From NCBI GenBank assembly GCA_023664045.1, contig JAMPGH010000001.1, forward strand, positions 1,242,299 to 1,306,298: a stretch of 64,000 nucleotides of DNA, given 5' to 3'. The stretch is from Alistipes senegalensis (GTDB lineage: Bacteria; Bacteroidota; Bacteroidia; Bacteroidales; Rikenellaceae). The position numbers and the translations under genes were made by a program. Positions 1 through 64,000 of the stretch are shown here, one piece after another. Each line of letters starts with the position of its first letter. Within the stretch, counting starts at the first letter, position 1. The notes below the pieces were generated by a model. That model ran no database searches, had not been told where the DNA came from, and was given only the letters and a program-made list of their open reading frames with translations.

Positions 1-857
1 CTGGCGGCGGTGATGGCGTGCGGCTCGTCGATGATCGCGGCGCCGGCCCGCACCAGCGCTTCGCAGACGGCCGTGTCGGCCTGCTTGGAGAGCATCGAGA
101 CGTTGCGGACGGTCATTTCGCCGGCCGTGGCGCCTGCCACCAAGAGCATGGCCGCGGCGCTCCAGTCGCCCTCGATGGCGAAGTCGATGCCGCGGTAGCG
201 TTGCCCGCCGGGGACGTAGAATTCGCTGTAGTCGTTGTGGCAGATCTCCACGCCGAAGCGGGCGGCCGTGTCGACGGTCATATCTAAATAAGGAGCGGAG
301 ACGGCCTGCGCGACATGCAGCGTGCTGTCTTCGGCCGCAAGGGGCAGAGCGAGCAGCAGCCCCGTGATGAACTGCGAGGAGACCGAGCCGTCGACGCGCA
401 CCATGCCCCCGCGCAGGGGTCCGCGCACCTCCAGAGGCAGGAATCCGTTGCGGTCGGAAACCTCGGCTCCCAGCTGCCGCAGGGGTTCGATTATCGCTTG
501 CATGGGGCGCTGCAGAAGCGTCTTTTCGCCTTCGATGCGGATTTTTTCGCCGCAGAGCGCCGCCACGGGGGTGAAGAGCCGCGCGGCGAGCCCCGATTCT
601 CCGACATGCAGGATGTCGCCGCGGGGTCGCAGCCCGCCGCGGATCGCGAACGTATGTTCGTCCTCGCAGCGCACCTCGGCACCGAGCATTTCGATGCAGC
701 GCAGGGCCGAGCGGGTGTCGTCGCAGAGTTCGACGTTGCGCAGCACGGAGCTCTCTTCCGAGAGCAGCGATGCCGCGAGGGCGCGCTGGGCGTAACTCTT
801 CGAACAGGGAGGCGTCAGCGCGCCTGCGACGCGTCCCGGAGGCAGGGTGATCTCCAT
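1..857 (-). CDS. aroA: 3-phosphoshikimate 1-carboxyvinyltransferase (EPSP synthase), 3' end outside window
   Basis: Sixth step of the shikimate pathway: joins phosphoenolpyruvate to shikimate-3-phosphate in the cytoplasm. The start codon is at 855-857 (protein begins MEITLPPGR) and 285 codons are readable before the window edge, so roughly the last third of a ~410-residue enzyme is missing. Seen motifs are the phosphate-binding segment PPCSKSYAQRALAA near the N-terminus (family form PGDKSISHRA) and GESGLAARLF (family form GNAGTAMR). The divergent wording of both motifs is in keeping with the Bacteroidota branch, from memory. No partner gene of the pathway is visible. An AT-rich inverted-arm element begins right upstream of the start. 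Confidence 0.88.
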   Translation of the reverse strand, partial: MEITLPPGRVAGALTPPCSKSYAQRALAASLLSEESSVLRNVELCDDTRSALRCIEMLGAEVRCEDEHTFAIRGGLRPRGDILHVGESGLAARLFTPVAALCGEKIRIEGEKTLLQRPMQAIIEPLRQLGAEVSDRNGFLPLEVRGPLRGGMVRVDGSVSSQFITGLLLALPLAAEDSTLHVAQAVSAPYLDMTVDTAARFGVEICHNDYSEFYVPGGQRYRGIDFAIEGDWSAAAMLLVAGATAGEMTVRNVSMLSKQADTAVCEALVRAGAAIIDEPHAITAA

Positions 858-860
858 TTC

Positions 861-994
861 CAAATTAAGAATCGAGCATGAAAAATTAAAAATCGGGTCG
901 GATCCGCTTTCCGGAGATTCGCGGCGTGCGGAAACTTTCGTCGTCCTGCTTTGCGCCGCGTGATTTTTAATTCTTAATTTTTCATTTTTAATTT
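861..994. repeat. AT-rich inverted-arm intergenic element 1
   Basis: Arms at 861-893 (AAATTAAGAAT...AAAAATTAAAAAT) and 962-994 (ATTTTTAATTCTTAATTTTT...) are imperfect inverted copies around a 68-base GC-rich spacer. It fills the gap between the aroA start and the lptB stop. The same arm text recurs at 5.5, 27.8, 35.7 and 38.5 kb. Confidence 0.7.
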
Positions 995-1778
995 ATTCGC
1001 GTCCTCCCCGGTTTTTCATCTCCTGCGTGATCTGGTGGCTGCGCTTGAGCTCGAAGTGCTGCCCGAGGTATACCTTGCGGACCATCGGGTCGGCGGCCAG
1101 CTCTTCGGCCGAACCGGTCTTGAGGATCTTGCCTTCGTAGAGGAGGTAGGTGCGGTCGGTGATGGCCAGCGTCTCGTCGACGTTGTGGTCGGTGATGATG
1201 ACGCCGATGTTCTTGTGCTTGAGGGTCGCCACGATCGACTGGATGTCTTCCACGGCGATGGGATCCACGCCCGCGAAAGGTTCGTCCAGCAGGATGAACG
1301 CCGGGTTGATGGCCACGGCGCGGGCGATCTCCGTGCGGCGGCGCTCGCCTCCCGAGAGCTGGATGCCCAGACTCTTGCGGACTTTCTGGAGACGGAACTC
1401 CTCGATCAGCGCCTCGACGCGTTCGTTCTGGTACTCCTTGCTGTAGTCGGTCATCTCCAGCACGGCGCGGATGTTCTGCTCGACGGTCAGGCGGCGGAAT
1501 ACGGAGGCTTCCTGCGCCAGATAGCCCACGCCCAGCTGGGCGCGGCGATAGACGGGCAGCGCCGTCAGCTCGGAGACCTCTTTTTCGTCGTTCTCCAGAA
1601 AGATGCGCCCTTCGTTGGGCTTGATCAGGCCTACGATCATGTAGAAAGTCGTGGTCTTGCCGGCTCCGTTGGGGCCCAGCAGACCGACGATCTCGCCCTG
1701 ATTGACGTCGATCGACACGTGGTCGACCACCGTGCGGGATTTGTATTTCTTGACAAGCTGGCTGGTGTAGAGACGCAT
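993..1778 (-). CDS. lptB: LPS export ABC transporter ATP-binding protein LptB
   Basis: Cytoplasmic ATPase of the LptB2FG complex that extracts lipopolysaccharide from the inner membrane and drives it along the Lpt bridge. The 261-residue protein has Walker A GPNGAGKT (about residues 36-43), signature LSGGERRR, Walker [13 protein letters not shown] and the switch histidine in ITDHNV. Length is about 20 residues more than the E. coli enzyme, with the extra sequence at the C-terminus. LptB usually sits near lptA/lptC; here it stands alone, head to head with recQ. A TAACTTTG box (1803-1810, minus) lies about 25 bases before the start. Confidence 0.93.
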
Positions 1779-1802
1779 GCGGTTTGCAAATAAAATTTTT
1801 CA

Positions 1803-1810
1803 CAAAGTTA
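1803..1810 (-). promoter_or_regulatory. -7 promoter box of lptB
   Basis: TAACTTTG on the minus strand, a full TAnnTTTG match, 25 bases upstream of the lptB start in the divergent lptB/recQ gap. Confidence 0.5.
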
Positions 1811-1832
1811 TGCTTTTTTCGGAAAAAATTTT

Positions 1833-1840
1833 TATCTTTA
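1833..1840 (+). promoter_or_regulatory. candidate -7 box of recQ
   Basis: TATCTTTA (one mismatch to TAnnTTTG) about 25 bases upstream of the recQ start. Confidence 0.4.
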
Positions 1841-1864
1841 CGTTGAATTTTCGGATTTAAAAGC

Positions 1865-4072
1865 ATGCAAAACGGCGAAATGGAACGGTTCGATTCATCC
1901 CTGCTGCACGGAAAGCTGAAGGAATACTTCGGATTTTCCTCGTTCAAGGGCAATCAGGAGGCGGTCATCCGCAATGTGCTGGAGCGGAAGGATACGTTCG
2001 TGCTGATGCCTACGGGCGGCGGGAAGTCGCTCTGTTACCAGTTGCCGGCACTGCTGATGGAGGGCGTGGCCATCGTCATCTCGCCGCTGATCGCGCTGAT
2101 GAAGAATCAGGTCGACTCGATGCGCACGTTCGCCGCCGAGCCGGGCATCGCCCACTTCCTCAATTCGTCGCTCAACAAGACGGCCGTGCAGCAGGTGCGC
2201 GCCGACGTCATGGCGGGCAAGACCAAGCTGCTCTACTTCGCGCCCGAATCGCTCACCAAAGAGGACAACGTGGCTTTTCTGCGCAAGATCCGGATTTCGT
2301 TCTACGCCATCGACGAGGCCCACTGCATCTCCGAATGGGGCCACGACTTCCGGCCCGAGTATCGGCGTATCCGCCCGATCATCAACGAAATAGGCAGCGC
2401 TCCGCTGATCGCCCTCACCGCTACGGCTACGCCGAAGGTGCAGCTCGACATCCAGAAGAATCTGGGCATGTCCGACGCCGCGGTCTTCAAGTCGTCGTTC
2501 AACCGGGCCAACCTCTTCTACGAGATCCGGCCCAAACACGACGTCGACCGCGAGATCATCCGCTTCATCAAGCAGAAGGAGGGCAAGAGCGGCATCGTCT
2601 ATTGCCTGAGCCGCAAGAAGGTCGAGGAGCTCACCGAGCTGCTGATCGCCAACGGCATCAAGGCCCGGGCCTACCATGCCGGCATGGATGCCGCCACGCG
2701 GGCCGGCAATCAGGACGACTTCCTCATGGAGCGGGTCGACGTCATCGTCGCCACGATCGCTTTCGGCATGGGCATCGACAAGCCCGATGTGCGCTACGTG
2801 ATCCACTACGACATTCCCAAGTCGCTCGAAGGGTATTATCAGGAGACCGGGCGTGCCGGCCGCGACGGCGGCGAGGGCCACTGCCTCACCTTTTATAGTT
2901 ATAAGGACATCCAGAAGCTGGAGAAGTTCATGCAGGGCAAGCCCGTCGCCGAGCAGGAGATCGGCAAGCTGCTGCTCGTCGAGACGGTCTCCTACGCCGA
3001 AAGCTCGATGTGCCGCCGCAAGACGCTGCTGCACTACTTCGGCGAGGAATATACCGAGGAGAACTGCCATAACTGCGACAACTGCCGCAATCCCCGTCCG
3101 AAGGTCGACGCCCGCACGGCGCTCCGCACCGTGCTCGAAGCCCTGCGCGACATCGGCGACAAGTTCAAGGCCGACTACCTCGTAGCGGTGCTCACGGGCA
3201 AGAATACGGCCCTCATCAAGAGTTACGGACACAACAAGTCCAAGTGGTTCGGGGCCGGCGAGGAGCACGACGCCCGCTTCTGGGGTGCCGTGATCCGGCA
3301 GGCGCTGATTCTGGGCCTGATCGACAAGAACATCGAGAACTACGGCCTGATCTCCATCAACAAAAAGGGCGAGAACTACATCGCCATGCCGTTCCCCGTC
3401 TTCGTTACGTTGGACCACGACTACGATCAGGAGGAGAAGGAGGCCGAGGCCGAAGTGCCGGTAGGCAAGGGCGGCGCGGCCGACGAGGAGCTTTTCTCGA
3501 TGCTCAAGGACCTGCGCAAGAAGGTGGCCAAGAAACACGACCTGCCGCCGTTCGTCATCTTTCAGGATCCTTCGCTCGAAGACATGGCCGTGCAGTACCC
3601 CGTTACGTTGGAGGAGATGCAGAATATCACGGGCGTGGGCGTGGGCAAGGCCAGGAAGTTCGGAGAGGACTTCGTGCGCCTGATTAAAGCCTACGTCGAG
3701 GAGAAGGAGATCATCCGCCCGCAGGACATGGTGGTCAAGGGGGTCGCCAGCAAGTCGGGCAACAAGATCTTCATCATCCAGTCCATCGACCGCAAGATGG
3801 ATTTCGAGGACATCGCCCGGGCCCGGGACCTCGACTTCGACGAGCTGCTCACCGAGATCGAAGGCATCGTCAACTCGGGTACGAAGCTCGACATCTCCTA
3901 CTACATCCGCGATTTCATGGACGAGGACAAGGCCGAGGACATCTACCTCTATTTCAAGGAGGATGCCGAGAGCGATTCGCTCGACGATGCGCTGGAGGAG
4001 CTCGGCGCCGACTATACCGAGGAGGAGATCCGCCTCGTGCGCATCCGCTTCATGTGCGAACAGGGTAACTGA
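1865..4072 (+). CDS. recQ: ATP-dependent DNA helicase RecQ
   Basis: 3'-5' DNA helicase of recombination and fork repair. The 735-residue protein has the SF2 order: Walker A TGGGKS (residues 50-55), DEAH in YAIDEAHCISEWGHDFR, motif III ALTATATP, helicase C-domain ending in ETGRAGRDG, then the RecQ zinc cysteines (C in SSMC, later CHNCDNC), a winged-helix RQC part and an HRDC domain (about residues 540-605, around EEMQNITGVGVGKARKFG). Some 125 further residues form an acidic C-terminal extension beyond HRDC, longer than the ~610-residue E. coli enzyme. A second ATG lies five codons downstream; the first is used here because it fits the upstream box equally well. The next gene starts 20 bases after the stop. 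Confidence 0.96.
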   Translation: MQNGEMERFDSSLLHGKLKEYFGFSSFKGNQEAVIRNVLERKDTFVLMPTGGGKSLCYQLPALLMEGVAIVISPLIALMKNQVDSMRTFAAEPGIAHFLNSSLNKTAVQQVRADVMAGKTKLLYFAPESLTKEDNVAFLRKIRISFYAIDEAHCISEWGHDFRPEYRRIRPIINEIGSAPLIALTATATPKVQLDIQKNLGMSDAAVFKSSFNRANLFYEIRPKHDVDREIIRFIKQKEGKSGIVYCLSRKKVEELTELLIANGIKARAYHAGMDAATRAGNQDDFLMERVDVIVATIAFGMGIDKPDVRYVIHYDIPKSLEGYYQETGRAGRDGGEGHCLTFYSYKDIQKLEKFMQGKPVAEQEIGKLLLVETVSYAESSMCRRKTLLHYFGEEYTEENCHNCDNCRNPRPKVDARTALRTVLEALRDIGDKFKADYLVAVLTGKNTALIKSYGHNKSKWFGAGEEHDARFWGAVIRQALILGLIDKNIENYGLISINKKGENYIAMPFPVFVTLDHDYDQEEKEAEAEVPVGKGGAADEELFSMLKDLRKKVAKKHDLPPFVIFQDPSLEDMAVQYPVTLEEMQNITGVGVGKARKFGEDFVRLIKAYVEEKEIIRPQDMVVKGVASKSGNKIFIIQSIDRKMDFEDIARARDLDFDELLTEIEGIVNSGTKLDISYYIRDFMDEDKAEDIYLYFKEDAESDSLDDALEELGADYTEEEIRLVRIRFMCEQGN

Positions 4073-4092
4073 TCCGATAAAACTCGAGTGCT

Positions 4093-4317
4093 ATGAACAA
4101 GAAGACTTTCATCCTCGCTTCGATGTTTTTGTGCATCACGCTCGTGTGGCTGGGCGCCAACGTCTATTGGCGTGCGGTGCGTCCGGCTTGCGTGAGCGGA
4201 TTCGATCTGGCGGTCGCCGTGCTCTTCGTGGCCGTCGCCGCCGGCATGACCGTGCACGAGTTCCGCAAAAAGAAACGCCGGCATCTGGAGGATGTCAACA
4301 AACATCAGATTCCCTGA
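4093..4317 (+). CDS. small two-helix membrane protein, first of three
   Basis: I do not recognise a family. The 74 residues contain two hydrophobic segments (about 7-27 and 41-58) separated by a short loop with YWRAVRPACVSG, and end in a strongly basic tail (FRKKKRRH). It follows recQ by 20 bases and is followed 4 bases later by a second protein of the same plan, so recQ, the three small genes and rsmA look like one transcription unit. Basic tails after the second helix predict both ends inside the cytoplasm. Function unknown. Confidence 0.65.
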   Translation: MNKKTFILASMFLCITLVWLGANVYWRAVRPACVSGFDLAVAVLFVAVAAGMTVHEFRKKKRRHLEDVNKHQIP

Positions 4318-4321
4318 GCCT

Positions 4322-4513
4322 ATGAAAGCGTTGAGCCGATTCATGGCTGTCATGGCCGTCGTTTTCTTCGTGCTGGCCCTCGTGGCGGCATGGCGGGTCG
4401 TCATGTCCGGGAGCCACGGGATCTGGTACGTTCCGGTGGTGCTGGCGTTGGCTTCCGCCTCCATGATTTTCGGGTCGCTGCGCTTCCGGGGGCAGGATTC
4501 TCAGAACGAATAG
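4322..4513 (+). CDS. small two-helix membrane protein, second of three
   Basis: 63 residues starting MKALSRFMAVMAVV, with two hydrophobic stretches (about 7-25 and 35-50) and a short polar tail containing RFRGQ. An in-frame ATG exists ten codons upstream (4292), but it lies inside the preceding gene, so 4322 is preferred. Same topology as the neighbours but no obvious sequence identity with them. Function unknown. Confidence 0.6.
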   Translation: MKALSRFMAVMAVVFFVLALVAAWRVVMSGSHGIWYVPVVLALASASMIFGSLRFRGQDSQNE

Positions 4514-4516
4514 CTT

Positions 4517-4747
4517 ATGAATGCAGCTTCTTTCTGGCAGGCCGTAAGGTTGGCGACGATGGTGCTGGCGATCGCCGGAATCATCTACGCGCTGGAGTTC
4601 TTGCCGGGCGGCATCGCCCTCTGGTTCTGGGTCGCCTTGCTCGGCATCGGATTCGTCGGGTCGCTCGTCTCTTTCCGCCTCGCCCGGCGGCGCAATGCGC
4701 GCAACTCCCGGCAGCCGGTTCCCCGCAATAAAAAACGCCGCCGATGA
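4517..4747 (+). CDS. small two-helix membrane protein, third of three
   Basis: 76 residues: two hydrophobic segments (about 10-29 and 34-52) and a very basic C-terminus (RLARRRNARN ... KKRRR). The stop overlaps the rsmA start in an ATGA junction, which points to translational coupling with the rRNA methyltransferase. The arginine/lysine tail could also touch RNA or lipid head groups; that is only inference. No family recognised. Confidence 0.62.
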   Translation: MNAASFWQAVRLATMVLAIAGIIYALEFLPGGIALWFWVALLGIGFVGSLVSFRLARRRNARNSRQPVPRNKKRRR

Positions 4748-5547
4748 CCGAGGTCCGGGCTAAGAAGGCGTTGGGTCAGCATTTTCTGGTCGACCTCAAC
4801 ATCGCGCGCAAGATCTGCGACTCGCTTTCGGGCGGTACGGCCGCGGCGCCCGCCACGGTGCTGGAGGTCGGCTGCGGCATGGGCGTCCTGACGCAGTTCC
4901 TGCTGCAGCGCGACGACCTGACGACTTACGGTGCCGAGATCGACACGGAGAGCGTCGACTACCTCCGCAGCCATTTTCCCGACTTCGCGCCGCGGCTTTC
5001 GGAGGGCGACTTCCTCAAGATGGACTTGCGGGCGGCATTTCCCGACGTCGCGGCTCTGAGGATCATCGGCAATTTCCCCTACAATATCTCGTCGCAGATC
5101 TTCTTCAAGATCCTCGAACACCGCGATTTCGTGCCCGAGTGCGTCGGCATGATCCAGCGGGAGGTCGCCGTGCGGCTGGCCGAGCCTCCCGGGTCGAGGG
5201 AGTACGGCATCCTGTCGGTCTTGTTGCAGGCGTGGTACGACATCGAATACCTCTTCACGGTCGGCGAATCGGTTTTCAATCCGCCGCCCAAAGTCAAGTC
5301 GGCCGTCATCCGCCTGCGACGCAACGGCGTCGAACGCCTCGGGTGCGACGAGCGGTTGTTCATCCGCGTCGTCAAGGCTTCGTTCGGGCAGCGGCGCAAG
5401 ATGATCCGCAACTCCCTGCGGGCTGTCTTCGGCGACTTCGGGGGTGCGGAGCATCCGTTCTTCACCCGCCGTGCCGAGCAGTTGTCCGTCGCCGAGTTCG
5501 TCGAACTCACCAACTGGACGCAGGAGCATGCCGTAATCAAGAATTAA
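4744..5547 (+). CDS. rsmA: 16S rRNA adenine(1518/1519)-dimethyltransferase RsmA/KsgA
   Basis: Dimethylates two adjacent adenines in the 3' terminal helix of 16S rRNA, a late small-subunit assembly step using S-adenosylmethionine. The 267-residue length is normal. Seen: KKALGQHFLVD at the N-terminus, SAM motif I LEVGCGMGVLT (about residues 39-49), and the catalytic N-[LF]-P-Y motif as NFPYNISSQI. The C-terminal part carries SFGQRRKMIRNSL, typical of the family. It overlaps the previous small gene by four bases and is the last gene of the recQ unit; it converges on the M16 peptidase pair. Confidence 0.95.
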   Translation: MTEVRAKKALGQHFLVDLNIARKICDSLSGGTAAAPATVLEVGCGMGVLTQFLLQRDDLTTYGAEIDTESVDYLRSHFPDFAPRLSEGDFLKMDLRAAFPDVAALRIIGNFPYNISSQIFFKILEHRDFVPECVGMIQREVAVRLAEPPGSREYGILSVLLQAWYDIEYLFTVGESVFNPPPKVKSAVIRLRRNGVERLGCDERLFIRVVKASFGQRRKMIRNSLRAVFGDFGGAEHPFFTRRAEQLSVAEFVELTNWTQEHAVIKN

Positions 5548-5625
5548 AAATGCGGGTGCGGCGCAACTCCGGGGCGAAATTCCCGGAATTCGATTTTTAA
5601 TTTTTCATTCTTCATTTTTCATTTC
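5535..5625. repeat. AT-rich inverted-arm intergenic element 2
   Basis: Left arm about 5535-5552 (AATCAAGAATTAAAAAT) and right arm about 5588-5625 (ATTTTTAATTTTTCATTCTTC...). The left arm includes the rsmA stop and the right arm includes the M16 stop at 5605, so both convergent genes end inside the element. Confidence 0.6.
5568..5595 (+). terminator. weak hairpin after rsmA
   Basis: TCCGGG (5568-5573) pairs with CCCGGA (5582-5587) over an 8-base loop, followed by ATTCGATTTTT. Short stem, so only a candidate terminator. Confidence 0.35.
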
Positions 5626-6882
5626 CGAAGTCTCTCCCACGACCACCGTTACCAAGTCTTCCCGTTTCAGATACTTCTGCGCCAAGCGTCGTACGTCGGC
5701 GGGCGTCATGGCGCGTATGTCGCTGAGGTTCTCGTCGATGATCGAGTTGTCGGCTCCGCAGAGGATGTTTTCGATCGTTACGTCGGCAATGCCGAAAGGC
5801 CCGTCGAGGATGCGCATCATCTCGCCCGTCAGGATGTTCTTCACCAGCGACAGCTCCTCTTCCGGCACCGGTTCTTCGCGCAGACGTTCGATCTCCGCGT
5901 AGATTTCGCCGAGTGCCGCGCCGGTCGCTTCGGCGCCTACCTGCGTGGCGACGGCAAGGTAGCCCGCACGGTCGAAGTTGACCATCGCCGCCATCGCTCC
6001 GTAGGTGTAACCGTGGCGTTCGCGCAGGTTCTGCATCAGCCGCGACCCGAAGTAGCCGCCCAGCACGGTCGCCACCACCTGCATGCCCACGAAATCGGGG
6101 TGCCGGCGGTCGAAGAGCAGCCGTCCGATGCGGATCGACGACTGCACGGCTCCCGGGCGGTCGATAAGGACTTTGCGGTGCGTCTCCGGTTCGGGGAACA
6201 TCGCCCGGGCCGCCGCGCCGTGCGGCAGCCGGCCGGCGATCGCCGCCACGGCACGGCGTTCGTCGTCGCCGATGCGGCCGCTGCAGACCACGAAGCAGTT
6301 TTCGGCCGTGTAGTGCGTGCGGTAGAATCGTTGCACGTCGTCGCGCGTCAGGGTGTCGTAGAGCGCTTCGTCGAACGAAATGCCGTAGGGGTGGCGGGCT
6401 CCGAAGAGCGCTTCGGCGAAGGCTTCGCGGGCTTGGACGTCCACTTTCTGCCGGTCGATCCGCAGCCGTTGTTTGCGCTTGGCGCAGTAGGTGCGGAGTT
6501 CTTCTTCCGGGAATACGGGACGGAGCAGAATCTCTTCGGCCACGTCGAGCGTCGGGCGGCAGAACTTCGAGAGGGTCGCGAAGCTGATGTAGGCGTAGTC
6601 GCGGTCCAGATTGACATCGAACCACGAGCCGTAATAGTCCAGCCGCTCGGCGATTTCGCGGGCCGTGAGGTTCCGTGTGCCTTCGGCCAGCAGGTTGGCC
6701 GTGGTCGACGCCGCGAAGGGTTTTTCCTGCACGGCCGAGCCGGCATGGAATACGAATGTTACGCGCAGTACTTCGAAGTCGTCGGCCGGCAGCGCGTAGA
6801 GCGCTACGCCGTTGGGCAGCAGCTCCTTGTCGGCGCCTCGGATCTCGACGGACGAGGGAACGGTCAGGGGAGGAGGTGTCAT
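5605..6882 (-). CDS. M16 family peptidase-like subunit lacking the zinc motif
   Basis: 425 residues with the two-lobed insulinase/processing-peptidase fold: an N-terminal part (TANLLAEGT around residue 61) and a C-terminal part with GGYFGSRLMQNLRERHGYTY. At the place where active M16 enzymes have HxxEH, this protein reads AASTTANLLAEGT, so it cannot bind the catalytic zinc. The start ATG (6880-6882) overlaps the stop of the upstream active subunit in an ATGA junction. Known heterodimeric M16 enzymes (mitochondrial MPP, bacterial PQQ-type and Sphingomonas pairs) pair one active with one inactive chain that helps hold substrate; the same arrangement is inferred here. Substrate unknown. Confidence 0.88.
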   Translation of the reverse strand: MTPPPLTVPSSVEIRGADKELLPNGVALYALPADDFEVLRVTFVFHAGSAVQEKPFAASTTANLLAEGTRNLTAREIAERLDYYGSWFDVNLDRDYAYISFATLSKFCRPTLDVAEEILLRPVFPEEELRTYCAKRKQRLRIDRQKVDVQAREAFAEALFGARHPYGISFDEALYDTLTRDDVQRFYRTHYTAENCFVVCSGRIGDDERRAVAAIAGRLPHGAAARAMFPEPETHRKVLIDRPGAVQSSIRIGRLLFDRRHPDFVGMQVVATVLGGYFGSRLMQNLRERHGYTYGAMAAMVNFDRAGYLAVATQVGAEATGAALGEIYAEIERLREEPVPEEELSLVKNILTGEMMRILDGPFGIADVTIENILCGADNSIIDENLSDIRAMTPADVRRLAQKYLKREDLVTVVVGETSEMKNEE

Positions 6883-8114
6883 TTCGCTCGGTAGATTAGG
6901 GTCGAGCTGCGCTCTTCGCGCAGCGTGCGGCGGCAGAAATCCAGAATGTCGTCTTTCGTTACGGCCCGGTAGACGTCGACTTCGCGGTTCATGAGGTCGA
7001 GGTCGCCCAGCATCTCGTAGAATCCCAGATTCATCGCCTTGTTCATTACGTTCAGTTCGCCGAAGAGCGTGTTCGCTTCGAACTTGTTCTTCACTTTCTC
7101 CATTTCGTAGTCGGAGGCCGCTTCCCGGCAGAGGAGGTCTATTTCGTCCCGGAACGCCTGCTCGGCCTGCTCGGGCGTCGTCTCCGGCAGCAGCTGCCCC
7201 GTGAAGATGAAGAGCCCCGGATCGAGGCTTCCCAGAATGTAGGCGTTGACCGACGAGAGCAGTTTCCGCTCCTTGACCAGCCGCGTGTAGAGGCGCGAGG
7301 AGTCGCCGCCCGACAGCAGATCCGACGTCAGATCGGCCGTGTAGAAGTCCGGCGACAGCCGCCCGCCCATCGGGTAGGCTACGGTTACGGTCGTCGCCGG
7401 GACGTCGCGTTCGACTTCTCGGCGGCGCGCCTCGTGCTGCGGCGGTTCCTGAGGAATGGCCGCCGGAGGCGTCGGACGGTCCGGAAGAGCGCCGAACCAC
7501 TTCTCCGCGAGGTCGAACATTCGCTCTTCGTCCATGTCCGCCGAGAGCGACAGAATCGCGTTCGAGGGGTGGTAGTAGGTGCGGTAGAACGCCTCCACGT
7601 CGTCGAGCGTCGCCCGGGCGATGTGGTCGGGCGTCAGGCCGATGGCCGCCCAGCGATAGGGGTGGACCCGGTAGGCCAGCGCCCGCAGCAGCAGGGTCTG
7701 GTCGCCGTAGGGTTGGTTGAGGTAGCGTTGCCGGTACTCCTCGATGACCACTTTTTTCTCGGGCTCCAGCTTCTCGGGCGTGATGTCGAGCCCTTCGATG
7801 CGGTCGCTTTCGAGCCACAGGGCCGTTTCGAGGTTGTCGACGGGCAGGGTGATGTAGAAGTTCGTGTAGTCGTTGTTGGTGAAGGCGTTGTCGTCGCCCG
7901 AGGCCATCTGCACGGGCAGGTCGAAATTCGGGATCTCGCGCGTCCCGCGGAACATCAGGTGTTCGAACAGGTGGGCGAATCCCGTACGCGAGGGATCCTC
8001 GTTGCGGGCTCCCACCTTGTAGAGGATGTTCACGGCGGCCAGCTTCGACTGACGATCGCGGTTCACGGCGACCGTCAGTCCGTTGGCGAGTATTTTCTTG
8101 CGATAGGGTATCAT
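6879..8114 (-). CDS. M16 family zinc peptidase, active subunit
   Basis: 411 residues from MIPYRKKILANG. The zinc motif HLFEH is at residues 48-52, and the third ligand glutamate lies in the KKVVIEEYRQR helix about 75 residues on. The C-lobe has the usual GGDSSRLYTRLVKERKL segment. A longer reading frame begins at 8141, but a TACCTTTG promoter box at 8119-8126 (minus) lies between that ATG and 8114, which decides for 8114. Only four bases separate the box from the ATG, so the message is probably leaderless. Co-translated with the zinc-less partner. No signal peptide, so a cytoplasmic enzyme is inferred. Confidence 0.9.
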   Translation of the reverse strand: MIPYRKKILANGLTVAVNRDRQSKLAAVNILYKVGARNEDPSRTGFAHLFEHLMFRGTREIPNFDLPVQMASGDDNAFTNNDYTNFYITLPVDNLETALWLESDRIEGLDITPEKLEPEKKVVIEEYRQRYLNQPYGDQTLLLRALAYRVHPYRWAAIGLTPDHIARATLDDVEAFYRTYYHPSNAILSLSADMDEERMFDLAEKWFGALPDRPTPPAAIPQEPPQHEARRREVERDVPATTVTVAYPMGGRLSPDFYTADLTSDLLSGGDSSRLYTRLVKERKLLSSVNAYILGSLDPGLFIFTGQLLPETTPEQAEQAFRDEIDLLCREAASDYEMEKVKNKFEANTLFGELNVMNKAMNLGFYEMLGDLDLMNREVDVYRAVTKDDILDFCRRTLREERSSTLIYRAK

Positions 8115-8118
8115 GAGC

Positions 8119-8126
8119 CAAAGGTA
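8119..8126 (-). promoter_or_regulatory. -7 box of the M16 pair, 4 bases from the ATG
   Basis: TACCTTTG on the minus strand, full TAnnTTTG match, ending four bases before the start codon. Confidence 0.5.
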
Positions 8127-17908: not shown

Positions 17909-19213
17909 TTATTTCTGTCGGAAGTAGATCTGCATCGGCACGCCCGAGAAGTCCCACTGGCTGCGGATGTTGTTTTCCAGAAAGCGGCGGTAGGGCTCCT
18001 TGATGTATTGGGGCAGGTTCACGAAGAACGCGAACTGCGGCGTGGGCGTCGGGAGCTGCGTTACGTACTTGATCTTGATGTACTTGCCTTTGGTCGCCGG
18101 GGGAGGGTAGTTCTCGATGAGCGGCAGCAGGTATTCGTTCAGCTCCGAGGTCGCGATGCGGCGTTTGCGTGACTGGTATACGCGGACGGCGGTCTGCAGC
18201 ACGTCGAAGATGCGTTGTTTCGAGAGCACCGACGTAAAGATGATGGGTATGTCGTTGAAGGGCGCCAGCTTCTTCTTCAGAAACTCCGTCCACTCCTTCA
18301 TCGTGTTGTTTTCTTTCTCCACAAGGTCCCACTTGTTCACCACGATCACGCAGCCTTTGCGGTTGCGGACGATCAGGTTGTGGATGTTGAGGTCCTGCGA
18401 TTCGAGCCCCTGCTGGGCGTCGAGCATCAGCACGCAGACGTCGGAGTTCTCGATGGCGCGGATCGAGCGCATGACGGAGTAGAACTCCAGATCTTCCATC
18501 GTCTTGCCTTTCTTGCGCATGCCCGCCGTGTCCACCAGATAGAAGTCCATGCCGAATTTGTTGTAGCGCGTATGGATCGAGTCGCGCGTCGTCCCGGCAA
18601 TGGAGGTTACGATGTTGCGTTCTTCGCCCAAGAGGGCGTTGGTCATCGACGACTTGCCTACGTTGGGACGGCCGACGATCGTGATGCGCGGCAGGTCGTC
18701 TTCCTCTTCCGAGGAGGTCTCGGCCGGGAGTGCGGCCAGTATGGCATCCATCATATCGCCCGTGCCGCTTCCCGACATGGAGCTGATGCAGTAGGGATCG
18801 CCCAGCCCGAGGGCGTAGAATTCGTGCGACGAGTAGATCTGGTCGTTGTTGTCCACCTTGTTGCAGACCAGAATCGTCTTCTTGTCGCTGCGGCGCAACA
18901 GGTCGGCCATCAGGGCGTCCAGATCGGTGATGCCCGTCGTTACCTCCACCAGAAAGAGGATCACGTCGGCTTCGTCGATGGCCAGCAGCACCTGACGGCG
19001 GATCTCGTCTTCGAAGATATCTTCCGAGTTGACCGTATAGCCGCCCGTGTCGATCACCGAGAACTCCTTGCCGTTCCAGTCGGTTTTGCCGTAGTGGCGG
19101 TCGCGCGTGGTGCCGGCCGTCGAGTCCACGATGGCCTTGCGCTGGCCGACCAGCCGGTTGAAGAGGGTGCTCTTGCCCACGTTGGGGCGTCCTACGATTG
19201 CTACGAGACTCAT
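17909..19213 (-). CDS. der: ribosome biogenesis GTPase Der (EngA)
   Basis: Essential double GTPase needed for 50S subunit maturation. 434 residues with two G domains: first GRPNVGKST (about residues 8-16), DTGG and NKVD; second GRPNVGKSS (about 181-189), DTAGM and NKWD; then a KH-like C-terminal domain with [17 protein letters not shown]. Length and order are standard. Monocistronic by context; promoter TTTG-N18-TATCTTTG at 19245-19274. The stop codon lies three bases from a 27-base repeat shared with the lectin-like fragment, so the insertion island abuts this gene. Confidence 0.97.
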
Positions 19214-55870: not shown

Positions 55871-56455
55871 CTATTTCTTGGCTAATTTGTTAAACAGAAC
55901 CATCAGGTAGCCCAGTACCAGAAACGCACCCGGCGCCAGCACGAAGATCAGGGGCGTGTAGTCTCCGATTCCGAGGCTCGCACCGAAGATCGAGCCGCCG
56001 CCCAGCACTTCGCGTACGGCACCGATGGCCGTCAGCGAGAGGGTGAATCCCAGGCCGATGCCTATTCCGTCCAGCACCGAGTCGAAGGGCGAGTTCTTGG
56101 AGGCGAAGGCTTCCGCGCGGCCCAGAATGATGCAGTTGACCACGATCAGGGGGATGAATACGCCCAGCGAGGCATAGAGCGCGGGCACGAAGGCCTGCAT
56201 GAGCATCTGGATGATCGTTACGAACGACGCGATGATGACGATGAACGCCGGGATGCGTACTTTGTCCGGAATGATGTTCTTCACCAGCGAGATCACCAGA
56301 TTCGACATGATCAGCACGGCCATCGTCGCCAGACCCATGCCCATGCCGTTCGCGGCCGAGGTCGTGGTTCCCAGCGTGGGGCACATGCCCAGTACGAGTA
56401 CGAACGTGGGGTTGTTCTTGACGATGCCGCTCAATACTATTTTCAGCTTATTCAT
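55871..56455 (-). CDS. rnfE: Rnf complex subunit RnfE (RsxE)
   Basis: 194 residues, six helices; [20 protein letters not shown] and [19 protein letters not shown] are the RnfA/E paired cluster segments, and [12 protein letters not shown]-like [14 protein letters not shown] is family-specific. Overlaps the rnfG gene by 8 bases. Membrane core of the ferredoxin:NAD+ oxidoreductase pump. Confidence 0.96.
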
Positions 56456-57098: not shown

Positions 57099-57111
57099 CG
57101 TACGCTCCTCC

Positions 57112-58071: not shown

Positions 58072-58108
58072 ATTGTTTCTTTTTTCTGTTGACATGTGTG
58101 GATATCCC

Positions 58109-59458
58109 TTACTTCTTCGGGGCTGCGGCGGCCGCACGCTGGCGGACGATGCCCATGACGGTCTGTTTTCCCAGCCGCACCCAGTCCAGCAGCGGCAGAT
58201 AGGCCGGGCAGCTCGCCTGACAGCAGCCGCATTCGATGCACGAGGTAATCATGTGTGCTTCGAGGGTTTCCCAGCCTTTCTTCTGGGTCATCTTCGAAAG
58301 ATAGTAGGGTTCCAGTCCCATCGGGCAGGCGGCCACGCACTTGGCGCACTTGATGCACTGCGAGGCTTCGCGGCGCACGGCTTCGCGGCCGCTCATCACG
58401 GTGATACCCGAGCAGCCTTTCGTTACGGGCGACGTCAGGTCGATCATCGCGCGGCCCATCATCGGACCACCGTTGATTACCTTGCCCGCATCTTCGGGCA
58501 GACCGCCGGCCGCCTCGAGCAGCGTCTCGACGGGCGTGCCCATGCGGACGAGCAGGTTCTTGGGTTCCTTGAGGCGCTTGCCCGTTACGGTTACCACGCG
58601 TTCGATCAGGGGTTTGTTCTTCTGCACCGCCTGATAGACCGCATAGGTCGTCGAGGCGTTGCAGACCACGGCGCCCACGTCGATCGGCAGCGCCGGCGGG
58701 GGCGGTACCTGACGGCCCGTTACCGCTGCGATAAGTTGCTTTTCGCCGCCTTGCGGGTAGCGCACTTTCAGGGGCACCACCTCTACGCCATGATACTCCT
58801 TCACCAGCTTCGTCAGGTGGGCTATGGCGTCGGGTTTGTTGTTTTCGATGCCGATGAACGCGCGGTCCACGCCGATCGCTTTCATCAGGATCGCGACGCC
58901 CGCCAGCAGTTCTTCGCCGTGCTCCAGCATCGTGCGGTGGTCGGAGGTCAGGTAGGGCTCGCACTCCACACCGTTGATTATCAGGGCTTCGGCTTTCTTG
59001 CCGGGAGGTATCGAAAGTTTCACGTGCGTGGGGAACGTCGCTCCGCCCATGCCGACGATTCCGGCTTCTTTGATCTTGGCGATGATCTCTTCGGCGGTCA
59101 GCGTGCATTCTTTCTTCAGGTCGGGCGTGCGGTCGATGCCTTCGACCCACTCGTCGCCTTCGCGTTGAATGGTGATGGCCATCTGGCGTACGCCTTGTCC
59201 GTTGGGTTGCAGATCCACGGCCACGACCGTGCCCGATACGGGCGCGTGGATGTTGGCCGACATGAAGCTGCCCGCTTCGGCGATCAGCTGTCCCGTGAGT
59301 ACCTTGTCGCCTTTGGCTACTTTGGCCACGGCGGGTGCTCCGATGTGTTGGGCCAGCGGAATCGTTACCTTCTCGGGCAGGGGCAGCACCTCGATGGGGC
59401 GTCCGCCGCTCAGCTTGTTTTCCGACGGATGAACTCCGCCCATTGGAAATGTTTTCAT
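58109..59458 (-). CDS. rnfC: Rnf complex subunit RnfC (RsxC)
   Basis: 449 residues, NADH-facing peripheral subunit. N-terminal barrel-sandwich part (MGGVHPSENKLSGGRPIEVLP), Rossmann/SLBB middle (GIVGMGGATFPTHVKLSIPPGKK with flavin/NAD binding; INGVECEPYLTSDHRTMLE), and C-terminal 2x[4Fe-4S] (CIKCAKCVAACPMGLEPYYL and CIECGCCQASCPAYLPLL). Short form, without the long Ala-rich tail of E. coli RsxC. It is separated from rnfB by a 426-base repeat region although order and strand imply one operon. Confidence 0.96.
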   Translation of the reverse strand: MKTFPMGGVHPSENKLSGGRPIEVLPLPEKVTIPLAQHIGAPAVAKVAKGDKVLTGQLIAEAGSFMSANIHAPVSGTVVAVDLQPNGQGVRQMAITIQREGDEWVEGIDRTPDLKKECTLTAEEIIAKIKEAGIVGMGGATFPTHVKLSIPPGKKAEALIINGVECEPYLTSDHRTMLEHGEELLAGVAILMKAIGVDRAFIGIENNKPDAIAHLTKLVKEYHGVEVVPLKVRYPQGGEKQLIAAVTGRQVPPPPALPIDVGAVVCNASTTYAVYQAVQKNKPLIERVVTVTGKRLKEPKNLLVRMGTPVETLLEAAGGLPEDAGKVINGGPMMGRAMIDLTSPVTKGCSGITVMSGREAVRREASQCIKCAKCVAACPMGLEPYYLSKMTQKKGWETLEAHMITSCIECGCCQASCPAYLPLLDWVRLGKQTVMGIVRQRAAAAAPKK

Positions 59459-59884
59459 ATAGCTCTGTCTCTTTGTTTTGGCTTGATGTTCCTCGTCCGT
59501 CCGCTCCGGCAGCCGCAGCTTCGACCCGCTCTTCTCGGCGGTTTCGTCTCGCTTCGGCCGCTCGGCTTCACCGGCCGGCTCGCTCGTTGCTCAGCTTTTG
59601 CGCTGCTTCGGTCCGTGTCAGCTTCGGTCTCGCCGCTTCGCTTTCGCGGAGTGTCCCGGCCCGCTCAGCTTTTTCGGAATGTTCCGATCGGCTCGGTTAT
59701 TTCGCTCCACCGGTCGGCTCGCTCAGCTCTCTCGCTTCGGTCCGTGTCAGCTTCGGTCTCGCCGCTTCGCTTTCGCGGAGTGTTCCAGTTCGCTCAGCTC
59801 GCAGCTTCGGTCCGCTCGGCTCTCTCGCTGCTCCGCTTCTTCGGCAGCCGCCGCTCCCGGATTCCCGGACGTCGGACGTGTCGG
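59459..59884. repeat. repeat region interrupting the rnf operon
   Basis: 426 bases with no gene between rnfB and rnfC. A 50-base stretch starting GCTTCGGTCCGTGTCAGC and ending GCGGAGTGT is present twice without a mismatch, at 59605-59654 and 59734-59783 (129-base period); degenerate GCTTCGGTC/CTCGCT units fill the rest. On the plus strand it is pyrimidine-rich. Confidence 0.85.
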
Positions 59885-60874
59885 TTATTCCGCTTTTTCC
59901 GGGGCTTTCTTCTCGGCCGGGACCGATTTCGCCGCCCCGGCACTCGCTTCCGCCGCAGGCTTCTTCACTGCCGCCTCTGCCGCCGGCTTGGTGGCCGCGT
60001 TCTTCGTCGCTTCCGCCGCCGGCTTGGTCGCCGCCGGGGTTTTCGGTTCTTTGGGCAGCGGCTCCATGTTCACCAGCTTGATCGCTCCCGTCGGGCATTC
60101 GTTCACGCACTTGCGGCAGAGCTTGCACTTCTGCGGGTCGATGTAGGCCAGGTTGTTTTCCACCGTGATCGCTCCGAAGGGGCATGCTTTCTCGCATTTG
60201 CCGCAGCCGATGCAGCCCGCCTTGCAGGCTTTCATCACCGCCGCGCCCTTCTCTTTCGAGACGCACGACACGTAGACCGCCCGGTCTTTGGGCCATCTCT
60301 TGCGCAGCTCGATGATCCCTTTCGGGCAGGCTTTCACGCAGGCGCCGCAGGCCGTGCACTTCTCCGCGTCCACTTCGGGAAGCCCCGTTTCGGGGTTCAG
60401 TTCGATGGCGCCGAACGCGCAGACCGTTACGCAGTCGCCGAATCCCACGCAGCCGAACGTGCAGCCCGTCTCTCCGGCATAGAGCGACGAGGCCACGGCG
60501 CACGAGCGGGCTCCGTTGTAGTCGTTGGTGCGGGGACGCTTGGCGCAGGTGCCGCCGCAGCGGACCGTCGCCGTCTGAGGTTCCTTCTCGGCCGCCGCCT
60601 TGCCCAGAAATCCGGCAATGGCTTTCATGCAGTCGCCTCCGCCCACCGGACAGTAGAGCGACGAGATGTCGTCGTTCTTCACCAGTGCGTCGGCCATGCC
60701 GCGGCATCCGGCGAATCCGCAGCCGCCGCAGTTGGCTCCGGGCAGCATCTTCTCCACTTGGTCGATCCGGGGATCTTCCTCCACGCGGAACTTCTGTGCC
60801 ACGAAGTAGAGGATCACCGCGGAGAGTACTCCCAGTGCGCAGAGCGTCAGGATTGTGTAAAGTAATACTTCCAT
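59885..60874 (-). CDS. rnfB: Rnf complex subunit RnfB (RsxB) with Ala/Lys-rich tail
   Basis: 329 residues. One N-terminal helix, then the Fe-S domain GANCGGCGFAGCRGMADALV and several ferredoxin clusters: CTACGACVKACPKGIIEL, CIGCGKCEKACPFGAI and CKLCRKCVNECPTGAI. Accepts electrons from ferredoxin (PFOR, nifJ). The last ~65 residues form a low-complexity tail of KPAAEA-type repeats (AATKPAAEATKNAATKPAAE and on), absent from the short family members. Starts four bases into a UGA-AUG-type overlap with rseC (one shared base). Confidence 0.95.
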   Translation of the reverse strand: MEVLLYTILTLCALGVLSAVILYFVAQKFRVEEDPRIDQVEKMLPGANCGGCGFAGCRGMADALVKNDDISSLYCPVGGGDCMKAIAGFLGKAAAEKEPQTATVRCGGTCAKRPRTNDYNGARSCAVASSLYAGETGCTFGCVGFGDCVTVCAFGAIELNPETGLPEVDAEKCTACGACVKACPKGIIELRKRWPKDRAVYVSCVSKEKGAAVMKACKAGCIGCGKCEKACPFGAITVENNLAYIDPQKCKLCRKCVNECPTGAIKLVNMEPLPKEPKTPAATKPAAEATKNAATKPAAEAAVKKPAAEASAGAAKSVPAEKKAPEKAE

Positions 60875-61296
60875 CAGTTTTTAGTTATTGTAAATTGAAT
60901 TGTGTGTTCTATCTTGCGGCGGCAGAGCCACAGTACCATATAATATAGGACTACGCTTCCCAGCGCCGCCAGCGCTCCGGCCGCTTGGTTCCAGCCTCCC
61001 GCTCCGATCGTCAGCAGCAGGACGGCCAGCAGGACGGCCAATGCTCCGCCGTAGGCCAGTGCCACGGAGAGCAGTCCCGCGCGGCGTTTCATGCCCACCA
61101 GCACCTCCTCTCCCGGCCGGTATTGCGCCGCTTCGGGCGTCGGCACTTCCACGATCTTCTCTTGCGTCTCGGCCAGCCCGCAGGCTCGGCGGGCGCTGCA
61201 CGTGCCGCAGGCACTGCGGGATACGATCCGTACATATACCCGCCCCGCCTCCGTGCGTTCCACCACGCCGCTGTGTTCGATCAGCTCCGTCGCCAC
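60874..61296 (-). CDS. rseC: RseC/MucC-like SoxR-reducing system protein
   Basis: 140 residues. Cys-rich N-part (GVVERTEAGRVYVRIVSRSACGTCSARRACG) and two membrane helices (about residues 75-95 and 100-120). RseC-like proteins are encoded with rnf/rsx in many bacteria. It starts one base after the nadE stop and its stop overlaps the rnfB start, so nadE, rseC and rnfB are tightly linked. Confidence 0.92.
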   Translation of the reverse strand: MATELIEHSGVVERTEAGRVYVRIVSRSACGTCSARRACGLAETQEKIVEVPTPEAAQYRPGEEVLVGMKRRAGLLSVALAYGGALAVLLAVLLLTIGAGGWNQAAGALAALGSVVLYYMVLWLCRRKIEHTIQFTITKN

Positions 61297-61297
61297 T

Positions 61298-62875
61298 TCA
61301 GTCTCCGTATTTGTTGGTCAGGGGCATCAGGCGTTCGTGTCCGAACGAGCACATCGACAGACGCAGCACCGGCGGAAATTGGTAGCGTTTCTTTTCGTTG
61401 TGCATGATCATGGCGTGGATCTTCTCCACCACTTCCGAGTCGAATCCCGCGTTGATGATCTCTTCGCGGTGCTGTCCCTCTTCGATCATGCGGAAGAGGA
61501 TCGCGTCGACCACTTCGTAGGGCGGGAGTATGTCGGTGTCTTTCTGCCCCGGGTGAAGTTCCGAGGAGGGTTCTTTCGTCAGGATGCTCTCGGGTATGGG
61601 GTCGCCCTGCGTGCGGTTGATGTGGCGGGCCATGTCGTAGATCTCGCCTTTGTAGAGGTCGCCCGTGGGGCTGAATGCGCCGGCCGTATCGCCGTAGAGG
61701 GTGCAGAATCCCAGAGCGTTTTCGCTTTTGTTCGAGGAGTTGAGCAGGATGTAGTCGCTCTTGTTTTGCACGGCCATCAGCAGGATCGTGCGGATGCGGG
61801 TCTGGATGTTTTCTTCCGTGGCGTCGAACTCCGTGCCGCCGATCACCGGCTTGAGTGTGTCCGTTACGCTCGTGTAGATCTCCGCGATGGGGATCACGTT
61901 GTATTGAATCCCGAGACGTTCGGCCAGTTCTTTCGCATCTTCCACCGAGTGGTCCGACGAGAAAGGCGAGGGCATCAGCAGAGCCCTCACGTTCTCTTTG
62001 CCCAGCGCGTCGGCGGCCAGACAGGCCACCACCGCCGAGTCGATGCCGCCCGAGAGGCCGATCACGGCTTTTTCGTATCCGTTTTTGCGGAAGAAGTCCC
62101 TCAGGCCGCAGCGAGCCGCAGCATAGACCATGCGCGTGCGGTCGCCGCTCGAGGGAATCGTTACGGGTTCCGCGGCCGCTTCGGTATCGAAGATGCGGAA
62201 ATCTTCTTCGAAGCTCTTGAGCATCAGCACCAGTTCGCCCCGGTTGTTGAAGGCTCCCGACGTGCCGTCGTAGACGATCTCCGTCGCGCCGCCCACTTGA
62301 TTCACGAGCACCAGATTCTTGCCTTCCACGAACGAAAGGTTGCGCATCGCTTCGTAGCGGCGGGTCATGGCGCCCTTGCCGTATTTGCGGGCGTTGATCG
62401 AGACGATGGTCTCCACCGTGCGGTCGAAGTCGTGTTCGCGGCTCAGGTCGTCGCCCACGATGATGGCGCATTTGTGTCCTTTGATCGTGGCGTATTCGTA
62501 GCCTTTCGAGGGGACCAGAAAGCCCATTTCGCGACGGGCCGTGATGTGTTTCTTGCCGATGTAGCGGAGGACCTTGCGGTCTTGGATCAGGGCCGCGGCG
62601 CTGACCGTGCCGTCGGAGGTAAGCAGCGGGAGTCCCACGATGGCGGCTATGTCGTCGCAGCAGGAGGCTATTTCGACCAGCGCCTCTTCGCACAGTTCCA
62701 GAAAGGTGGTTTTTCGCAGCAGGTCGAATCCGGGGGTTCCGCTCAGGGCCTGTTCCGCGAAGATCACCAGATCGGCATGTTCGGCTTTCGCCTTGTTGAT
62801 CGCGTCGATGATTTTCGAGGCGTTTCCGTCCACATCGCCGACGGTGTAGTTCAACTGGGCTATGGCGATTTTCAT
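61298..62875 (-). CDS. nadE: NAD+ synthetase with a glutaminase-like domain lacking the catalytic cysteine
   Basis: 525 residues. C-terminal synthetase domain: PP-loop GLSGGIDSAVVACLAADALG (residues 273-292), ATP-binding, LLNSSNKSENALGFCTLYGDTAGAF. N-terminal nitrilase-like domain (1-235): catalytic Glu41 in IFAEQALSG and Lys of KKHITARRE (108/109) are present, but the nucleophile region reads CAIIVGDDLSRE, putting Gly141 where ICEDLW-type enzymes have the Cys. So ammonia rather than glutamine would be the nitrogen source. First gene of the operon with rseC-rnfBCDGEA: the rseC ATG lies one base past the stop. Promoter TACCTTTG at 62912-62919 (minus), ~30 bases of leader. Confidence 0.9.
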   Translation of the reverse strand: MKIAIAQLNYTVGDVDGNASKIIDAINKAKAEHADLVIFAEQALSGTPGFDLLRKTTFLELCEEALVEIASCCDDIAAIVGLPLLTSDGTVSAAALIQDRKVLRYIGKKHITARREMGFLVPSKGYEYATIKGHKCAIIVGDDLSREHDFDRTVETIVSINARKYGKGAMTRRYEAMRNLSFVEGKNLVLVNQVGGATEIVYDGTSGAFNNRGELVLMLKSFEEDFRIFDTEAAAEPVTIPSSGDRTRMVYAAARCGLRDFFRKNGYEKAVIGLSGGIDSAVVACLAADALGKENVRALLMPSPFSSDHSVEDAKELAERLGIQYNVIPIAEIYTSVTDTLKPVIGGTEFDATEENIQTRIRTILLMAVQNKSDYILLNSSNKSENALGFCTLYGDTAGAFSPTGDLYKGEIYDMARHINRTQGDPIPESILTKEPSSELHPGQKDTDILPPYEVVDAILFRMIEEGQHREEIINAGFDSEVVEKIHAMIMHNEKKRYQFPPVLRLSMCSFGHERLMPLTNKYGD

Positions 62876-62911
62876 GAATGGGTAGTTTTAGGTCCGCTAA
62901 TTACAACCTCG

Positions 62912-62919
62912 CAAAGGTA
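62912..62919 (-). promoter_or_regulatory. -7 box of nadE-rseC-rnf operon
   Basis: TACCTTTG on the minus strand, full consensus, ~37 bases before nadE. It is the only clear promoter seen upstream of the whole rnf unit. Confidence 0.55.
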
Positions 62920-63067
62920 AGGATTATTTGCAAAAGACGGAAACATTTTGGGGCGAAAGGTTGAAATGAAAGGCGGAAGTCGGAAAATCCGTACCTCGAT
63001 AATAAAAAATTAAGAATCGATGCCGACCCGCTCTCCCTTTCCGCAGCTCCTCCATGAACTACCCGTA

Positions 63068-63266
63068 AATCTTCTTTGCGGACTTTCCGCAGTTCTTCTT
63101 TCCACAACTTCTCTTTCCCCTCAGAACTTTTCTTTGAATCTTCTTTGCGAACTTTCCGCAGCTCTTCTCTCCGCAGCTCCCTCTTTCCCCTCAGAACTTT
63201 TTTCCGAGAATCTTCTTTGCGAACTTTGCGCAGTTCTTCTCTCCGCCCCTCCCTTAGCCCCCCCCC
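63068..63266. repeat. three-unit tandem repeat with C9 tract
   Basis: AATCTTCTTTGCG[GA]ACTTT... starts at 63068, 63137 and 63209 (units of 69 and 72 bases, third truncated). C9 at 63258-63266. Fills the nadE-upstream gap 62920-63341 together with a lone AT-rich arm at 63001-63020. No gene seen. Confidence 0.8.
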
Positions 63267-63267
63267 G

Positions 63268-63306
63268 AAAAAAAACGACAGCCGAAACCTCTGGGGGTTC
63301 CGGCTG
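63268..63306 (-). terminator. terminator of the zinc-ribbon gene
   Basis: On the minus strand CAGCCGGAACC pairs with GGTTTCGGCTG (one mismatch), loop CCCAGA, then T8 after CG. Ends right before the C9/repeat array. Confidence 0.8.
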
Positions 63307-63341
63307 CCGCCTCGTCGTTCGGCGCCTGTTCGGCACCTCGT

Positions 63342-64000
63342 TTATTCTTGCACCTCTTCCGGATCGGAGACCAGAATGCGGCCGCAGTATTCGCAGATGA
63401 TGATTTTCTTGCCTTGCCGGATGTCGGCCTGACGCTGGGGCGGGATGCGGTTGTAGCAGCCGCCGCAGGCGTCGCGCTTGACCGTTACCACGGCCAGTCC
63501 GTTGCGGACGTTTCCGCGGATGCGTTCGTAGGCGGTCAGCAGGCGGTCGTCGATCTTGACCTTGACTTTTTCGGCTTGGGCTCCGTATTCGGCTACCTGC
63601 GGGGCGGTCTCGGCTTCGATGCTCTCCAGTTCGTTTTTCTTGGCTTCCAGATCGGCGGCCCGTTCCTTGCTCAGCTGTTCGGCTTCTTCGAGTTGGAGTT
63701 TCTTGTTCTTGATGGCCGCAGCATACTCCTTGAGGCGTTTTTCGGCCAGTTCGATCTCCAGTTCCTGATACTCGATCTCTTTGGTTATGGCGTCGAATTC
63801 GCGGTTGTTGCGGACGTTGTTTTGTTGTTCCTTGTAGTTGGCGATCATGATCTTGGCCTGATCGGTCTCGCGCTTGCGTTGCTTGGTCAGCGTGTTGAGT
63901 TCTTCGATTTCGGCGTTGATCTTGTCCACGCGGGTCTGCATGCCCGCCATCTCGTCTTCGAGGTCCTGCACTTCCAGCGGCAGATCGCCTTTCACCTTGT
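63342..64000 (-). CDS. coiled-coil protein with C4 zinc ribbon, 5' end outside window
   Basis: 219 codons readable; the frame continues past 64000 and the first in-window candidate start is an in-frame GTG (63993-63995), preceded by an in-frame AAG, so the true start lies outside. A long coiled coil (LPLEVQDLEDEMAGMQ to EYGAQAEKVKVKIDD) is followed by a zinc ribbon: ACGGCYNRIPPQRQADI ... ICEYCGRIL (CxxC twice), then an acidic end DPEEVQE. This is the family of conserved C4-type zinc-ribbon (DUF164/RING_7-like) proteins of Bacteroidota; function unclear, possibly nucleic-acid binding. Confidence 0.88.
   Translation of the reverse strand, partial: KVKGDLPLEVQDLEDEMAGMQTRVDKINAEIEELNTLTKQRKRETDQAKIMIANYKEQQNNVRNNREFDAITKEIEYQELEIELAEKRLKEYAAAIKNKKLQLEEAEQLSKERAADLEAKKNELESIEAETAPQVAEYGAQAEKVKVKIDDRLLTAYERIRGNVRNGLAVVTVKRDACGGCYNRIPPQRQADIRQGKKIIICEYCGRILVSDPEEVQE

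Follow-up and report, generated by a model that had tools for sequence, protein, structure and literature searches.

Near-absence of GTSAC from an Alistipes genome as the probable footprint of a Type II restriction-modification system with the specificity of Tsp45I

Introduction

What could have emptied a long stretch of GC-rich DNA of one short palindrome? The stretch concerned, hereafter the window, comprises 64,000 bases with 60.9% GC on the main contig (C1) of an Alistipes genome. The first-pass annotation noticed that GTSAC was almost missing from it and that GTWAC was frequent, and saw in this a pattern that long-term avoidance of a restriction or modification target can leave. We examined this proposal in the genome itself (G000; 1.97 Mb, i.e. 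1,968 kb, in five contigs C1-C5, 86.13% complete) and in 179 genus mates, which gave a set of 180 genomes.

Results

GTSAC in the window and over the genome

A direct count on the plus strand of the window gave 0 GTCAC, 1 GTGAC, 84 GTTAC, and 14 GTAAC. The single GTGAC in der, the absence of GTCAC, and the abundance of GTTAC and GTAAC were thus as the first-pass annotation had described them, and its proposed comparison with a Markov model bore out the depletion. The maximal-order model predicted 46.7 GTSAC in the window, an expectation that is itself lowered by the depletion, with GTSAG, our rough control, slightly raised; the first-order model predicted 113. The Poisson probability of at most one occurrence given 46.7 is 2.5e-19. 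GTWAC was in excess (Table 1).

The depletion was spread over the sampled genome. In 384 kb of C1 (the window and sixteen 20-kb stretches), GTSAC occurred 7 times against 279 expected, and in one stretch each of C2 to C5 the observed/expected counts were 0/19, 0/10, 1/9, and 0/3. In total, about 500 kb of the 1,968 kb contained 11 sites, and with an observed-to-expected ratio (O/E) of about 0.015 to 0.025 the word is almost absent. GTSAC, a palindromic Type II site within the 4-6 bp range, therefore lies below its Markov expectation in the window and in the C1 sample alike, as is usual for restriction-site avoidance. Three of the seven sites of the C1 sample (positions 7670, 8570, and 9689), together with two CTAG, were located in a single 1044-aa frame of one stretch (L010:7372-10506; C1 at about 657-661 kb). 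We take this frame, from its sequence, to encode a TPR/CHAT-type protein; it was probably acquired or imported recently.

Table 1 Features of the window and of the same genome discussed in the text
Feature	Position	Strand	Remark
GTSAC-depleted, GTWAC-enriched region	window, 1..64000	.	GTSAC 1 vs 46.7 expected; GTWAC 98 vs 62 expected
Sole GTSAC in the window (plus-strand GTGAC)	window, 18169..18173	.	inside der
der, GTPase Der, 434 aa	window, 17909..19213	-	name from the first-pass annotation and the two-GTPase-domain sequence
Giant proteins with N6_Mtase domain	G000:C1:1509476; G000:C2:30883		frames of about 1985-1989 and 1811-1817 aa

Distribution of the gap among relatives

Relatives were ranked with der as the query. 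Forty-eight congeners were sampled, most of them by a single stretch no longer than 20 kb; 42 had no match to the Tsp45I endonuclease profile (PF06300) and six had one. In 41 of the 42 non-carriers the O/E of GTSAC was 0.57-1.33. The one exception was G009, with 0 sites against 28.5 expected in about 33 kb of readable sequence from an 82% complete assembly. Six short contigs (L129, L131, L134, L167, L283, and L285) consisted entirely of N and contributed nothing, which brought the G009 sample down from 40 kb to this figure. G009 showed 85.1% identity to G000 over the 10.5 kb aligned. Over the first 201 residues of Der, G009 was 97% identical to G000, whereas G012 and G084, both with normal GTSAC, were 95% identical; the loss is accordingly of recent date in the genus and common to G000 and G009. 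The footprint is thus lineage-specific: relatives without the system also lacked the avoidance, apart from G009.

Tsp45I carriers in the genus and beyond

Tsp45I cleaves GTSAC (Raven et al. 1993, by its title in the reference list of PMC3280180), and an m6A methylase of the beta class acting on GTSAC is mentioned in PMC3936762. PF06300 matched in six of the 180 genomes (G006, G080, G100, G134, G164, and G203). In G006 a 259-aa Tsp45I endonuclease (E 4e-123) adjoins a 342-aa N6_N4_Mtase; the PF06300 match was likewise adjoined by a PF01555 match in G080, G100, and G134, that of G134 being in two pieces with the C-terminus out of frame. Beside the PF06300 match of G164 and that of G203, a putative methylase frame was recognized from the DNA or the list of open reading frames.

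In the samples from these carriers the O/E of GTSAC was 0.16 (G006), 0.25 (G080), 0.37 (G100), 0.62 (G134), 0.04 (G164), and 0.04 (G203). Pooled counts were 102/403 in carriers and 1596/1666 in non-carriers, and the groups differed with a one-sided Mann-Whitney P of 3.6e-6, G009 being counted in. GTWAC was also in excess in two of the carriers (148 vs 95 in G164 and 112 vs 53 in G203, from cruder gene calls that let in antisense frames). Avoidance varied within two of the carriers: in G134 (L176-L179) two stretches had GTSAC counts of 0/16.1 and 0/16.4 and two were normal (33/32.4 and 21/23.4), and in G100 the counts were 1/14.3, 10/15.0, and 5/13.3. From these differences between stretches, imported or mis-binned DNA has probably raised the averages of both genomes.

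The analysis beyond the genus covered 80 loci, from many phyla, among the 166 in GTDB that encode relatives of Tsp45I; six of the 80 overlap the set of six genus carriers. All 80 pooled gave GTSAC 350/808 as against GTSAG 1261/1019. For the 45 loci with an expectation of at least 8, O/E was below 0.5 in 28, below 0.25 in 19, and below 0.1 in 6, with a median of 0.36; the remaining 17 loci had an O/E of at least 0.5, some above 1, and therefore carriage of Tsp45I does not by itself guarantee avoidance. The degree of avoidance is tied in PMC4687349 to the residence time of the system. Eleven viral contigs of IMG/VR (L296-L306) encoded Tsp45I relatives with 42-58% identity. Two of 72,556 plasmid records had such a relative (Campylobacter and Miltoncostaea), and a plasmid home of the system has no direct support in this group.

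The word avoided here is the one that Tsp45I recognizes, and its depletion goes with Tsp45I carriage in the genus and elsewhere, while sampled non-carriers are normal with one exception; on avoidance the first-pass annotation was therefore well founded. Taken together, these findings suggest that the gap very probably reflects purifying selection against sites recognized by an orthodox Type II restriction-modification system with the specificity of Tsp45I. The endonuclease would occasionally cut the host chromosome before methylation has protected a site, which would make every chromosomal GTSAC slightly costly. Synonymous substitutions that abolish a site, mostly at valine codons (GTC-AC or GTG-AC becoming GTT-AC or GTA-AC), would be retained and would thereby empty GTSAC and fill GTWAC. 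An enzyme acting on GTSAC is accordingly expected to have worked in this lineage, and G000 may well have a resident modification system.

Search for the enzyme and timing of its action

The matching system, present in six of the 180 genomes, was not found in G000. Profile searches of the 86.13% complete assembly gave no candidate for PF06300, none over the cut-off for PF01555, PF00145, and PF02086, and no neighbouring N6_N4_Mtase of the kind that accompanies Tsp45I. In G009, neither PF06300 nor PF01555 was matched in the profile search and one PF00145 match was obtained. The Tsp45I-associated methylase of G164 (a 315-aa piece) found nothing in either genome at E <= 10. The statement that the window contains no methyltransferase held for the DNA-methylase families searched, since three of these methylase families gave nothing genome-wide and both PF02384 proteins of G000 lie outside the window. 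The search for a GTSAC-specific enzyme that had been proposed succeeded in the genus and gave nothing in G000. The first-pass interpretation has good support as regards avoidance, but the enzyme it would call for was not found in this assembly.

The proteins over the PF02384 cut-off in G000 were two giant ones of mobile type with an N6_Mtase domain (Table 1). GTSAC is avoided in the sequence surrounding both (0/16.5 in L148 and 1/11.7 in L147), indicating that these elements have adapted to the host. Frames of like size are present in G084, a genome with a normal GTSAC count (72/78), and G009 yielded no such frame; these giant N6_Mtase/helicase proteins are accordingly disfavoured as the agent. 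Immediately left of the window, at C1:1240280-1240552, PF02384 gave a weak match to what is presumably, by its sequence, a PrmC/HemK-type protein methylase. At C1:1778217-1778396, PF02086 and PF00145 both matched weakly (E 0.011 and 0.12), in each case below the cut-off.

Under the reading of a Tsp45I-like footprint, the likeliest place for the system genes would be the part of the genome outside the assembly, with recent loss next. A gene would be missing from both assemblies by chance in about 2.5% of cases if the two are independent (14% and 18% missing), which is possible and a priori not likely, and this leaves some weight to recent loss and to an enzyme of another family.

Recent loss would mean that the GTSAC restriction-modification genes were deleted a short time ago and that the gap is a fossil awaiting refill by mutation. 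The failure to find these genes in G000 fits this account, as does published experience: avoidance without a system is common, and when a system occurred only in other species of the same genus, its sites were under-represented in 18.4% of 5162 cases (PMC4687349). The timing speaks against it. In the comparison of G009 with G000, six types of control 5-mer gave 99 conserved sites out of 139, a turnover of about 29% or about 14% per lineage, with the types varying from 16% to 50% over only 10.5 kb aligned. Had selection relaxed at the split, about 14% of sites would have been refilled, which is about 40 in the 384 kb of C1 against 7 seen, and about 4 in G009 against 0 seen. This shortfall suggests that the agent acted in both lineages after the split, and any loss would have come well after it and in both. 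We therefore consider the lost system the best of the alternatives, but rather unlikely.

A GTSAC-specific system of another protein family, uncaught by the profiles used, would also explain a gap shared by two related assemblies, neither with the known family. This account appears somewhat less likely again, because no PF00145 or PF02086 match over the cut-off was present in G000, and because the giant N6_Mtase kind also occurs in G084 with its normal GTSAC and was not found in G009.

The lineage of G000 and G009 might instead purge GTSAC under a cutting agent that no dedicated methylase counters within the cell. The agent could be a solitary nuclease, which a chromosome nearly without sites would tolerate, or could come from outside, as an element, a neighbour, or a phage. 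Immunity by absence of sites would then replace methylation. However, about 11 sites in 500 kb remain and would have to be spared, and we regard this account as improbable.

How the sites were lost

The sequence of G000 was aligned with stretches of G007, G012, G023, G032, and G084; alignments shorter than 250 bases (300 in one comparison) and overlapping matches were left out, and predicted genes, the basis of the escape counts here and the frame counts below, were required to have GC3 > GC1 > GC2. None of the 109 GTSAC sites in the five relatives was kept in G000, whereas 122 of 239 sites of the control GTSAG stayed in class in the same alignments. Ten of the 109 lay outside predicted genes, 20 differed at more than one base, and 79 were single-base escapes in genes, of which 62 were synonymous and 17 non-synonymous (the direction of change being unpolarised). 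The synonymous escapes comprised 55 at the central base in codon position 3 (G to A 23, C to T 16, G to T 10, C to A 6) and 7 of the T2C type in codon position 3. Where the T occupies codon position 3 and the central base position 1, it was the T that changed, as T2C, in 7 of 9 single escapes. At CCWGG, the synonymous escapes C1T and C1G numbered 22 and 21.

The escapes thus track codon synonymy and not a single type of chemical change, a pattern that speaks for selection and against deamination. Decay of a methylated or damaged central C to T, from GTCAC to GTTAC, would account for the transitions that make up 39 of the 55 central escapes (23 G to A and 16 C to T). But the other 16 are transversions, the T2C escapes lose no cytosine, and at CCWGG C1G is as common as C1T, and mutation in place of selection is accordingly very improbable; deamination of m5C is disfavoured by the transversions and the T2C escapes. 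In a two-state model of selection, a footprint with an O/E near 0.015 would correspond to a 2Ns of about 4 for each site.

Codon usage and protein constraints

Synonymous codons were shuffled within each gene with the protein and the codon set fixed. Under this shuffle GTSAC numbered 1 against 64 (sd 4.7) in the window and 5 against 331 (sd 13.1) in the C1 sample, over its 254 predicted genes. Split by frame, the C1 counts were 3, 1, and 1 against 228, 96, and 7. GTWAC in the C1 sample was doubled, with 426 against 208 (sd 13.2). The avoidance is thus independent of codon and protein constraints. The shift from GTC-AC to GTT-AC at valine junctions, pointed out in the first-pass annotation, was confirmed in the frame GTN-AC, where a valine codon precedes AC: GTSAC 3 vs 228 and GTWAC 291 vs 65. 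Relatives gave GTSAC counts of 158/189 (G012), 58/74 (G084), and 97/128 (G007) in the same shuffle.

That codon-pair preference, which the first-pass annotation had named among the grounds that could refute its reading, or the base composition of the group emptied GTSAC agrees with the shift being strongest at these valine codons, but is strongly disfavoured to the point of rejection by the shuffles and by near relatives of similar GC having normal GTSAC.

Other avoided words

Two further words, absent from the list of the first-pass annotation, were depleted. In the window, CCWGG occurred 22 times against 138 expected and CTAG 0 times against 70; in the 384 kb of C1 the counts were 125/786 and 9/450. 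CTAG was low in most sampled congeners and CCWGG only in some. G000 itself gave no match over the cut-off to the C5-methylase profile PF00145. Among genomes with a PF00145 match, CCWGG was 1/218 in G007 and 0/47 in G147; among those without one, it was 0/21 in G184 and 2/28 in G124. G014, with four PF00145 matches, had GATC 0/172, CATG 1/144, and AGCT 2/103, and G176 had ACGT 1/57. Several palindromes were nearly absent together in G014, G015, and G034 (L085, L144, L082, L145, L071, L142, and L143). The palindromes emptied among the sampled species of the genus were GTSAC, CCWGG, GATC, CATG, AGCT, GGCC, CCGG, ACGT, and GGWCC.

Discussion

The gap is an unusually complete case of avoidance, and the genus supplies a natural comparison for it, with carriers, non-carriers, and one footprint lineage without a visible gene. 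As different palindromes are emptied in the sampled species of the genus, gaps in k-mer counts could record past and present restriction systems. Such gaps could also point to genes missing from draft genomes and flag imported DNA, as in G134 with two stretches at 0/16 and two normal. Our literature search, which fell short of most subscription journals, found no paper on Alistipes with restriction-modification and avoidance.

The genome differs from the Tsp45I carriers in having neither an endonuclease nor a methylase of the Tsp45I kind in its assembly. In the Tsp45I system, a PF06300 endonuclease with an N6_N4_Mtase neighbour, the recognition site GTSAC is the avoided word, and carriers are likewise depleted. 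The case is also alike to the avoidance published in PMC4687349, where a short palindrome is rare genome-wide and relatives encode the matching system. Of the orthodox pairs in that study, 47.9% show avoidance, and avoidance of a site for which no system is visible is read there as the trace of a lost one. The threshold of that study is a Kr under 0.78 (legend of its Fig. 6); here the word is nearly absent. The gap in G000 is thus a known kind of footprint, and an unusually complete one.
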